This document shows, one piece after another, positions 37,890-40,631 of a DNA stretch of 64,000 nucleotides (within the stretch, counting starts at the first letter, position 1; each line of letters opens with the position of its first letter). The DNA is taken from positions 1,488,001 through 1,552,000 of the forward strand of contig NZ_CP080524.1 in the NCBI RefSeq assembly GCF_024746795.1, written 5' to 3'. The stretch is from Mesorhizobium sp. AR10. Lineage in GTDB: Bacteria > Pseudomonadota > Alphaproteobacteria > Rhizobiales > Rhizobiaceae. The notes beneath the pieces were generated by a model. That model did not search any database. It saw only the letters and a list, made by a program, of their open reading frames with translations, and had not been told where the DNA came from. A program made the position numbers and the translations under genes.

Positions 37890-39200
37890 ATGAAATCCAT
37901 CCTCAAGCCACTCCTGATGATCACCGCGATGGCGTTGGGTATGACTGCTGCCGCCACCTTGCCGGCGATGGCGCTTGTCGAGCTCAACGTCAACAAGGGC
38001 AATGTCGAGCCATTGCCTATTGCCATCACCGATTTTCAGGGCGGAGATGCGCTTGGCGCCCAGATCTCCGAGATCGTCAGCGCCGATCTGAAACGCTCCG
38101 GCCTGTTCGCGCCGATCGACAAGAGCGCCTTCATCGAGAAAATCGCGAACCCGGATGCGACGCCTCGCTTCGACGACTGGAAGGTGATCAACGCGCAGGC
38201 GCTGGTGACCGGCAGCGTCGGCAAGGAGGCCGACGGCCGCATCCGCGCCCAATACCGGCTGTGGGATACCTTTGCCGGCCAGCAGATGTCCGGTGAGCAG
38301 TTCTTCGCTAATGACGCCAACACAAGGCGTGTCGCCCACATCATAGCCGACGCCATCTATGAGCGGCTGACCGGCGAAAAAGGCTATTTCGACACACGCG
38401 TCGTCTTCATCGACGAATTGGGCGCCAAGAACGCGCGCAGGAAGCGCCTCGCCATCATGGACCAGGACGGCGCCAACGTGCGCTATCTGTCGGACGGCAA
38501 GTCGATCGTGTTGACCCCGCGTTTCTCGCCGAACCGGCAGGAAATCACCTACATGTCCTATGAAAGCGGCCAGCCGCGGGTCTATCTCCTGCAGATCGAG
38601 ACCGGGCAGCGCGAACTGGTCGGCAATTTTCCCGGCATGACCTTTGCGCCGCGCTTCTCGCCCGATGGCCAGAAGGTGATCATGAGCCTGCTGCGCGACG
38701 ACGGCAATTCCAACATCTTCGCCATGGATCTGCGAAGCCGCTCGACGACCAGGCTGACCAATTCGACCGCCATCGATACCTCGCCGTCCTATTCGCCGGA
38801 TGGCAGCCAGGTGGTGTTCACCTCCGACCGCGGCGGTCGGGCGCAGATCTATGTGATGGGCGCCGACGGTTCGGGACAGAACCGCATCTCCTTCGGCGAC
38901 GGCGTCTATTCGACGCCGGTGTGGTCGCCACGCGGCGATCTCATCGCCTTCACCAAGCAGACCGGCGGCGAATTCCAGATCGGCGTCATGAAGACCGACG
39001 GCTCGGGCGAGCGTATCCTGTCCACGGGCTTCCAGCAGGAGGGACCGACCTGGGCGCCCAACGGCCGGGTGCTGATGTTCTTCCGCGATTCTGCCGGCGG
39101 GCCGAAACTGGTTTCGGTCGATCTCACCGGGCGCAACGAACAGCCGATCCCGACGGCGAACTTCGCTTCCGATCCGGCCTGGTCGCCGCTGCTGGAATAA
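37890..39200 (+). CDS. tolB: Tol-Pal periplasmic beta-propeller TolB
   Basis: A 436-residue periplasmic protein. The signal peptide ([21 protein letters not shown]) is followed by an N-terminal alpha/beta domain ([22 protein letters not shown]). A six-bladed beta-propeller with repeated SPD/SPN motifs follows ([60 protein letters not shown], and so on). It binds Pal. ATG at 37890 has a GAGAAG site; the upstream frame overlaps tolA. In most genomes pal follows within tens of bases; here a cassette separates them. Confidence 0.96.
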
Positions 39201-39205
39201 AGAGA

Positions 39206-39240
39206 GGAATTGGAGAAATGACGAATTGAACAATTGAGGA
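39206..39240 (+). repeat. Left inverted repeat of the IVS-like cassette
   Basis: Begins GGAATTGGAGAAATGAC, six bases after the tolB stop. Pairs with 39626-39660 (27 of 35 matching; three of the eight mismatches would be G-U pairs in RNA). Confidence 0.75.
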
Positions 39241-39241
39241 G

Positions 39242-39759
39242 ATGGAAAGACAGGAAGCTATATTAGGCGAGCGAGGGACTTAGAGGTCTGTAAGCGCGCT
39301 TATGCGGTTTCTCTCGAAATCCACAGCGCCACGCTTGCGTTTCCGAAAATCGAGCAATACGCGCTGGCCGATCAATTGCGACGCTCCAGCAAGGGGATTT
39401 GCGCTAATTTGGCTGAGGGATTTGCCAAGCAGACCCATTCCAAGGCCGAATTCGCGCGGTTCATTTCAATGGCCATGGGGTCATGCAGTGAAGTTGAGAC
39501 ATGGATCTCGTACGCGTTCGACCTCAAATACATCACACAGCCGCAATTCGACGAGTGGCAGCAAATCCTACGCCCATATCTACGGAATGCTGGTGAATCT
39601 CAGAGAAAGGCTGGGGTGACCTCTTTCTCCAGTTCTTCAATTCCTCAATTCCTCAATTCCCCCTTTTTCCATGTTTCGGCCGTATTTCCGCCCATGGTCC
39701 CCGCACATTGTGGCCATCGGTCAATGAGGTTGCGGACGGCAGCCGAAACCAAATCTTAA
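39242..39759 (+). pseudogene. Four-helix-bundle protein (TIGR02436, IVP/S23 family), 5' frameshift
   Basis: In one forward frame residues from SYIRRARDLEVCKRA through ALADQLRRSSKGICANLAEGF to MGSCSEVETWISYAFDL read as a complete four-helix-bundle protein of the 23S intervening-sequence family. That frame has no start codon: it runs back to a stop at 39235-39237. An ATG with a GAGGAG site at 39242 lies one frame away and reads MERQEAILGERGT then stop. One added base near 39254-39258 would join them. So the gene has lost a base, or uses an unusual start. The frame also runs on through the right repeat to 39759. Confidence 0.72.
39626..39660 (-). repeat. Right inverted repeat of the IVS-like cassette
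   Basis: Complement of the left repeat, containing a tandem triplication of the 8-base unit CAATTCCT (third copy ends in C) at 39638-39661. Confidence 0.75.
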
Positions 39760-39841
39760 CCGTGTTTGTTGAATGCCGGTTAACCCAAACGTGGTTACTG
39801 GGTGATCAATGAAATCACTCGAAATGCGAAGGAGAGGCGGC

Positions 39842-40348
39842 ATGGGCCGTATCGCAACACTTACCAGAAACCCGGTGATGATCGCGCTGATCGCGATGCT
39901 CGCCATCACCGGTTGCGCCTCGAAGAAGACCCCGAACAGCGCCGCCGATCTTGGCCTCAACGGCGCCGGGGCGGCAACGCCGGGCTCAGCGCAGGACTTC
40001 ACCGTCAACATCGGCGACCGTATCTTCTTCGACACGGACTCGACCTCGATCCGCGCCGACGCGCAGACGACGCTTTCGCGCCAGGCGACGTGGCTGAACC
40101 AGTACAGACAGTATGCCATCGTCATCGAAGGTCATGCCGACGAACGCGGCACGCGTGAATACAATCTGGCCCTCGGCGCCCGCCGCGCCGCCGCCACCCG
40201 CGACTTCCTTGTCGCGAAAGGTGTTTCCGCCCAGCGCCTGAAGACCATTTCCTACGGTAAGGAGCGTCCGGTCGCGGTTTGCGACGACATCTCCTGCTGG
40301 TCGCAGAATCGCCGCGCCGTCACCACCCTCAGCGGCGCCGGTTCCTGA
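39842..40348 (+). CDS. pal: Peptidoglycan-associated lipoprotein Pal
   Basis: A 168-residue outer-membrane lipoprotein. The signal ends at the lipobox ITGC (LIAMLAITGCASKK), and the OmpA-like domain carries FDTDSTSIRADAQTTL, IEGHADERGTREYNLALGARRA and the final WSQNRRAV. It binds peptidoglycan and TolB. ATG at 39842 with GGAGAGGCGG upstream is preferred to the one at 39809. Two TTAAC half-sites lie upstream (39756 and 39780), so pal may have its own promoter after the inserted cassette. Confidence 0.95.
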   Translation: MGRIATLTRNPVMIALIAMLAITGCASKKTPNSAADLGLNGAGAATPGSAQDFTVNIGDRIFFDTDSTSIRADAQTTLSRQATWLNQYRQYAIVIEGHADERGTREYNLALGARRAAATRDFLVAKGVSAQRLKTISYGKERPVAVCDDISCWSQNRRAVTTLSGAGS

Positions 40349-40352
40349 GTGC

Positions 40353-40453
40353 ATGACCCCGAAAATCGGCTTCGATTTTCGGAAAGGATCATGCGCCAGA
40401 TCAAAGAGCTTCAGCGTCCTTTGGGTGTTCTAAAGAACGCGCGGCGCTGAAGT
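40353..40453. repeat. 100-base rhizobial intergenic element with CGAAAATCG dyad
   Basis: Begins GCATGACCCCGAAAATCGG, contains the dyad CCGAAAATCG/CGATTTTCGG and then GGATCATGCG, ending in a GAAGCGCTG-like CTTCAGCG...CGCTGAAG pair. This compound layout is common in intergenic regions of Mesorhizobium and relatives. It lies directly after pal. Confidence 0.6.
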
Positions 40454-40480
40454 CGGCAAAAATACAACACCTCTATGTGA

Positions 40481-40507
40481 AAGGCGGCTAAAAGGCCGCC
40501 TTTTTCA
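40481..40507 (+). terminator. Intrinsic terminator after pal
   Basis: Stem AAGGCGGC/GCCGCCTT (40481-40488, 40495-40502) with loop and five T. It lies 133 bases after pal and 125 before cpoB, so it should end the tol-pal transcript and leave cpoB under its own promoter. Confidence 0.8.
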
Positions 40508-40631
40508 TATCTGGCCCATCGAAACAAAATTTGGCCGAAGTCTCACGTCCTGCTAAGAGCCGAGGGTGCCTGCTCGGTCTACGCGACCGGAAAGGCGCAG
40601 AGCAGACAACGAATTTCACGGCGAGAGGCAC

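Follow-up and report, generated by a model that had tools for sequence, protein, structure and literature searches.

The spacer between tolB and pal in Mesorhizobium sp. AR10 contains a cassette (39204-39668 of the window, the 64,000-nucleotide stretch of DNA analyzed here) in which a four-helix-bundle (4HB) gene of the 23S_rRNA_IVP family stands between inverted arrays of a degenerate 8-mer. We propose, with a probability of roughly 55%, that array hairpins form a dispersed family, that the cassette is one of its members with a gene, now decayed, and that the 4HB protein would help this family to spread or persist. Judged by its anatomy, this family resembles the REPIN/RAYT system.

Structure of the tolB-pal cassette

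The upstream neighbor tolB (37890..39200, forward strand; PF04052, E 3.2e-33) ends with the stop codon 39198-39200, and the left array begins only a few bases after it. The downstream neighbor pal occupies 39809..40348 on the same strand (PF00691, E 1.2e-21). The initial annotation described a cassette interrupting the tol-pal operon; it does lie between tolB and pal, but since it is placed behind the tolB stop codon, no coding unit is cut.

The left arm (39204..39241, forward strand), delineated by sequence and repeat comparison, is purine-rich and consists of degenerate tandem GAGGAATT-like 8-mers; positions 39205-39228 follow the 8-mer pattern with three mismatches, and the 3' end of the arm, GAGGAG, adjoins the ATG at 39242. 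The right arm (39625..39660, forward strand) is built of tandem CAATTCCT-type 8-mers, the reverse complement of the left-arm unit. The tandem repeat previously noticed in the right end was confirmed by TRF as 3.5 copies of TTCCTCAA at 39633-39660, the only array in the window with a unit below 9 bases and a TRF score of at least 40. The left arm is more degenerate, its tandem-array score (6) being lower than the control value of 14.18. Immediately 3' of the right arm is a T-run (39664..39668, forward strand), located at the place of the T-tract of the compact terminator in many relatives with an empty spacer.

The inverted repeats of the window copy align over 38 nt at 76% (39199-39236/39630-39667), with further alignments of 43 nt at 74% and 30 nt at 80%. 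The flank score of this copy (L002) is 39 in the inverted and 19 in the direct orientation, the 99th percentile of 483 control windows of the same geometry being 25.18. In the RNA minimum free energy (MFE) fold of 39201-39672 (-158.7 kcal/mol) the arms are paired, 29 of the 60 nt on the left-arm side pairing with the other arm; the z-score is -3.18, and none of 100 shuffled sequences folds equally well. The 35-base end repeats of the initial annotation are thus real as inverted repeats, but they are not plain repeats, as both ends are arrays of 8-mers.

This pairing is consistent with an RNA-level explanation, raised in the initial annotation, by which pairing of the arms within the tolB transcript creates a stem from which RNase III removes the 4HB segment, as in 23S rRNA, the DNA element being mainly a passenger. 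RNase III might cut the cassette stem: in the 23S rRNA intervening sequence (IVS) of Coxiella burnetii, tandem heptamers lie upstream of the ORF, and the IVS is reported to be cut by RNase III with a site at the first heptamer repeat (PMC4990558). On the other side, the same arrays occur without the gene at many sites, and the protein matters, as is seen from the purifying selection on its intact copies. We regard the RNA-level explanation as unlikely.

In the region 3' of pal we observed a palindromic stretch, CCGAAAATCGGCTTCGATTTTCGG (40359-40382), which may be a dispersed rhizobial repeat. A segment 3' of pal (40337-40436) weakly matches the Brucella sRNA family BASRCI27 (22.8 bits, gathering score 59.8, E 0.026). 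The Rfam scan of 39000-40600 yielded three weak matches, none of them reaching the gathering score.

The four-helix-bundle gene

Delimited according to intact relatives, the 4HB gene extends from the ATG at 39242 to the stop codon 39617-39619 (39242..39619, forward strand). It matches PF05635 with an E-value of 3.4e-29 (101.6 bits, cut-off 33.8) and the four helix bundle protein model TIGR02436 with an E-value of 3.8e-26 (91.4 bits, cut-off 24), the latter match covering model positions 1-92 of 109 in a single open frame (39286..39564, forward strand). The earlier assignment to the 23S rRNA intervening-sequence protein family is therefore correct; the gene itself is not intact. Compared with eight relatives, it has one base fewer at 39247..39256 (forward strand), a place that depends on the alignment, and one base extra at about 39560..39563 (forward strand), while the tolB-pal proteins of intact relatives have 125 amino acids. 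These two 1-nt frameshifts suggest that the window copy is probably a pseudogene, unless they are sequencing errors. A second 4HB gene in the same genome (L001) has an open frame and arms of its own.

Among the 50 tolB-pal copies found in the genus, 31 are intact by length and motif and 19 are not. The median dN/dS (Nei-Gojobori) is 0.098 for intact tolB-pal copies (30 sequences, 339 pairs) and 0.078 for copies at the ACD-HIBDH junction (103 pairs of 15 sequences, all of one length, out of 25). Here and below, the junction names nuoC, nuoD, ACD, HIBDH, GS and oxidase are based on recognized protein motifs, not on annotation. Intact copies are under purifying selection, with dN/dS of about 0.1; hence the 4HB protein mattered, though single copies decay, as in the window.

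Inverted arrays at other 4HB loci

The survey of 4HB loci, defined as the best-scoring matches of each search, included 31 loci from the genus, 52 from the family and phylum, and 78 from named genomes; L023, L239 and L253 were left out of the initial 164 because their flanks were short or masked. The inverted match of the 150-nt flanks was compared with the 99th percentile of the 483 control windows of the same geometry. It exceeded this threshold in 126 of the 161 loci, namely in 40 of 52 family and phylum loci, 55 of 78 named-genome loci, and all 31 genus loci, which are largely orthologs of a few sites and not independent. In the direct orientation only 15 of the 161 did so. The 35 loci that failed the test include three from named genomes (L267, L307 and L230), and some flanks of these three appear by eye to carry arrays of the same orientation. 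The named-genome loci that passed include, by record title, loci from Bacteroidota, Patescibacteria, Planctomycetes, Chloroflexi, Clostridia and Elusimicrobia, as well as from Desulfosarcina, Thiobacillus and a Methanophagales archaeon, many of these genomes being MAGs.

Tandem arrays are clear in both flanks of 45 loci, with periods 7/7 in 40, 8/8 in three, and other values in two. Arms are also predicted to pair: at least 12 arm nucleotides are paired in the MFE structures of 104 of 130 loci, as compared with 69 of 250 control windows, and the median for 44 tolB-pal elements is 38.5 of 70 nt. Left arrays are G-rich, with a skew above zero in 27 of 27 genus arrays, 24 of 24 family and phylum arrays and 87% of 38 named-genome arrays; right arrays are C-rich, the respective skew being above zero in 0% of 31, 3% of 38 and 14% of 42. 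In 59 of 74 measured loci the array starts between -12 and +14 nt from the upstream stop codon, the upstream gene being taken as the longest open frame. Both neighbors are on the strand of the 4HB gene in 56 of 73 named-genome, 20 of 31 genus, and 29 of 52 family and phylum loci, as judged from open frames only, which are noisy in GC-rich genomes. A search of the 4HB loci for nine short 23S motifs found none.

The sequence of the unit varies while the two arms of a locus agree with each other. At the nuoC-nuoD junction (29 loci) arms of the same locus have a median match of 42 and swapped arms one of 20; a sample of 40 other loci gave 31 and 15. The nuoC-nuoD unit differs between species, being of the GTGAATG, GCGAATA, GTAGTGA or TCGTCGG type, and both arms follow the change. 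Likewise, 8-mers make up both arms of most copies at the GS-ox junction, where the sister group uses 7-mers on both sides. Variant units do not follow a mirrored order in the two arms (16 cases for, 12 against and 15 ties among 43), so the arms appear to be coupled at the level of the unit, and exact inverted copying of one arm into the other is unsupported. The unit GTGAATG at nuoC-nuoD suggested an origin from the target itself, from the stop codon and the start of the next gene; this idea was dropped because similar units recur at unrelated junctions.

Array hairpins without the gene

The 8-mer pattern, with the tolB-pal cassette arms included, was found in 95 of 146 genus genomes, and its reversed control gave no match in all 146; a 7-mer pattern likewise occurs in 95 of 146. 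Of 34 array loci fetched from outside the tolB-pal spacers and the 4HB loci, 32 show an inverted partner at least one unit long and 25 have at least two units on each side. The arms of these hairpins are separated by no more than 79 nt, which leaves no room for a 4HB gene. Such gene-less hairpins recur at the same junctions across several species, and the genome of strain AR10 has one of the window's unit, at C2:1845939-1846056.

The arrays also persist in the absence of the gene, a point against the reading that we propose: array matches are present in 18 of 28 genomes without a 4HB match (maximum 33), and of the 64 genomes whose tolB-pal spacer is empty, 28 have 8-mer matches. The median array count is 13 in genomes with and 4 in genomes without a 4HB match, a difference that is confounded by kinship and includes the cassette arms. 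By tolB-pal state, the median numbers of 8-mer matches are 8 with the gene, 2 with remnants and 0 with neither, with the same confounding by kinship and own arms. Outside the family, Xanthomonas and Pseudoxanthomonas genomes with a 4HB gene have 186 and 111 matches to GGGRNYC arrays (control 0), and one 4HB gene from each of these two genera has arms of this known heptamer type. The initial annotation missed the gene-less copies, along with the broken gene and the short tandem arms that vary from site to site.

Occupied, remnant and empty sites

The tolB gene was identified in 145 of 146 genus genomes, and 144 tolB-pal spacers, including that of the window, were readable; one genome was left out for want of a tolB match and another (L069, G116), in which tolB is present, for want of a pal match within the about 1.2 kb fetched downstream. 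Of 74 initial tblastn calls of the 4HB gene, 24 were spurious matches in short spacers and were reclassified by length and score. The resulting counts are 50 spacers with the gene, 30 with array remnants only, and 64 with neither; they are estimates, as a remnant call means at least two near-matches. In a tree built from the tolB and pal segments on either side of the spacer, which is a short tree, the root state is empty, and the states change 27 times, compared with a mean of 47 and a minimum of 40 in 200 label shuffles. Two 785-nt spacers (L046 and L060) contain a complete 4HB gene with arms followed by a partial second 4HB gene and a second right arm.

The nuoC-nuoD junction was surveyed in the best 30 of 118 matched genomes. 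Its 29 readable junctions comprise 17 empty spacers, one with arms only, seven with a cassette, and four with other inserts. Empty spacers are up to 57 nt long, one being an overlap, and the junction of strain AR10 (L311) is empty. The arms-only form (L331) is a 179-nt spacer with GGCAGTC arrays and no gene. The other inserts, in four family genomes (L316, L323, L319, L330), have no 4HB match there, and this junction seems to be generally tolerant of insertions.

In the 4HB protein tree, 15 tolB-pal copies (of the 31 intact) form a clade with the window copy (support 1.0), the 25 ACD-HIBDH copies form one clade (0.88), and seven GS-ox copies group with L195 (0.80). Copies from other junctions are nested inside clades, namely L023 (0.973), the pair L199/L190 (0.972) and L195 (0.933). 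Grouping by junction points to mostly vertical residence of the tolB-pal, ACD-HIBDH and GS-ox copies, with some moves likely.

Comparison of relatives thus establishes, at the sequence level, the presence or absence of the cassette at the tolB-pal site. The search proposed in the initial annotation, for copies elsewhere and for vacant tolB-pal junctions, found both (copies at other junctions; 64 of 144 spacers empty), and the pattern it named as contradicting mobility, a ubiquitous tolB-pal cassette with no other copies and chance-level repeats, did not occur. Mobility is accordingly upheld by comparison only, through copies at other junctions, sites without the cassette, and gene-less copies; no transposition event was seen in the compared sites, and a target duplication, as a MITE would have at its ends, is not established, inspection of empty and filled nuoC-nuoD and tolB-pal sites by eye revealing no clear one.

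A simple pattern for a compact terminator matches 55 of the 64 empty spacers within their initial 115 nt, although some of these matches look spurious; it was found in 8 of 30 remnant spacers and, after the right arm, in none of 48 gene-bearing spacers longer than 500 nt, the searched stretches differing between these classes. These counts are compatible with non-mobile arrays: hairpins of terminators or 3' ends would lengthen where they stand, through slippage and template switching, and the 4HB gene would be a separate passenger entering their loops. The unmirrored unit order and the recurrence of gene-less hairpins at the same junctions in several species also agree with growth in place. 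However, it does not explain why unrelated sites in one genus share an 8-mer or a 7-mer, and at nuoC-nuoD the cassette is either present as a whole or absent, the spacers without it being at most 57 nt long. We consider growth in place rather improbable.

Purifying selection on intact copies could also be expected of a host gene that serves the tol-pal envelope system. Such a gene is rejected as the main reading and is very unlikely, because its presence is patchy (it is missing from 94 of 144 spacers and not intact in 19 of 50) and the same family occurs at unrelated junctions.

Relation to known systems

The kinship to the design of rRNA intervening sequences proposed in the initial annotation is supported. 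As in the 23S rRNA IVSs with an S23p/IVP ORF, a gene of the same protein family is enclosed by pairing ends, and as in Coxiella, short-repeat arrays adjoin an ORF that is reported to be decaying in some strains there (PMC4990558). The cassette has the complementary ends forming a long stem that characterize an IVS and the 23S_rRNA_IVP-family ORF found in a subset of IVSs, although disrupted in the window. Unlike an IVS, it is situated between the protein genes tolB and pal, not inside an rRNA gene. It also differs from the IVSs described in PMC4990558 by inverted arrays on both sides and dispersed gene-less copies, and from the Coxiella IVS by 31 of 50 tolB-pal ORFs being intact and under selection. 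The 4HB protein is related to XCC0516 (E 7.5e-12), reported as a pentamer (PMC4990558). It has a distant similarity to Avd of diversity-generating retroelements (DGRs), described as homologous to PF05635 in PMC10053308; the window gene scores 20.2 bits against NCBIfam DivGenRetAVD, far under the curated cut-off of 80.

Intergenic heptamers, GGGNATC in Xanthomonas and GGGGA(T/C)T in Nostoc, conserved in position and variable in length, have been described without a known role in Xanthomonas; convergent pairs number 70 and 75 in two Xanthomonas genomes and are few in Nostoc (PMC4692102). The arrays studied here are similar in being mostly heptameric and in forming convergent pairs. The terms "four helix", "S23" and "intervening" are absent from the main text of that paper (PMC4692102). 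Among the matches listed for the open-licence part of PubMed Central, without preprints, no title or abstract beginning links inverted heptamer arrays to free-standing 4HB genes; judged from that literature, the link may be new.

Dispersed extragenic inverted doublets that form hairpins and have an associated gene are likewise found in the REPIN/RAYT system, and such doublets occur at 32 of the 34 array loci; here the arms are tandem 7-8-mer arrays with a changing unit, a difference from REPINs (PMC3116915), and the 4HB protein, unlike RAYT, has no known catalytic domain. This resemblance (PMC3116915) might suggest that a RAYT or IS200-type Y1 transposase moves the arrays as REPs and that the 4HB gene is incidental, an explanation to which we assign hardly any likelihood. 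The search for Y1_Tnp gave no match in the genome of strain AR10, which disfavors RAYT as the mover, and matches in 25 of 146 genus genomes, compared with 95 of 146 that have arrays of the one or of the other unit, the number being the same for both.

Proposed mechanism

In the array-hairpin reading that we prefer, a family member has a short center between convergent arrays that share one unit of 7 or 8 bases, and in a few members this center holds a 4HB (IVP-family) gene. Most gene-bearing members begin where the upstream gene has its stop codon, a position in which they would do little harm and are probably transcribed with that gene. The two arms can pair as RNA or as single-stranded DNA. 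The tolB cassette occupies the place at which most relatives lacking it have a terminator hairpin, and its right arm runs into the T-run. The 4HB protein, a relative of XCC0516 and distantly of Avd, would be made from the transcript and would bind paired arrays in cis and in trans; this binding could help the family to spread or persist, an arrangement that would resemble a RAYT gene with its REPINs, and the protein may even drive the spread and keep the arms matched. The rRNA IVS is probably a relative of the cassette, one that would have been caught in an rRNA helix; this rRNA link draws on published descriptions.

More tentatively, and at somewhat less than even odds, we suggest a two-part system extending across phyla, in which convergent arrays of drifting, arm-matched 7-8-mers act together with a 4HB protein encoded in the loop of a few members, a system analogous to REPIN/RAYT but lacking a known transposase. 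If true, it would explain the heptamer repeats of Xanthomonas and perhaps those of cyanobacteria, and the rRNA IVS would be a member that ended up in rRNA. Genes of the 4HB/IVP kind are frequent but have no explanation so far, and heptamer arrays are a separate puzzle in several groups; linking the two would give both a testable role. The function of the IVS protein could then be tested in harmless soil bacteria, where naturally occupied, gene-less and empty sites would serve as controls.
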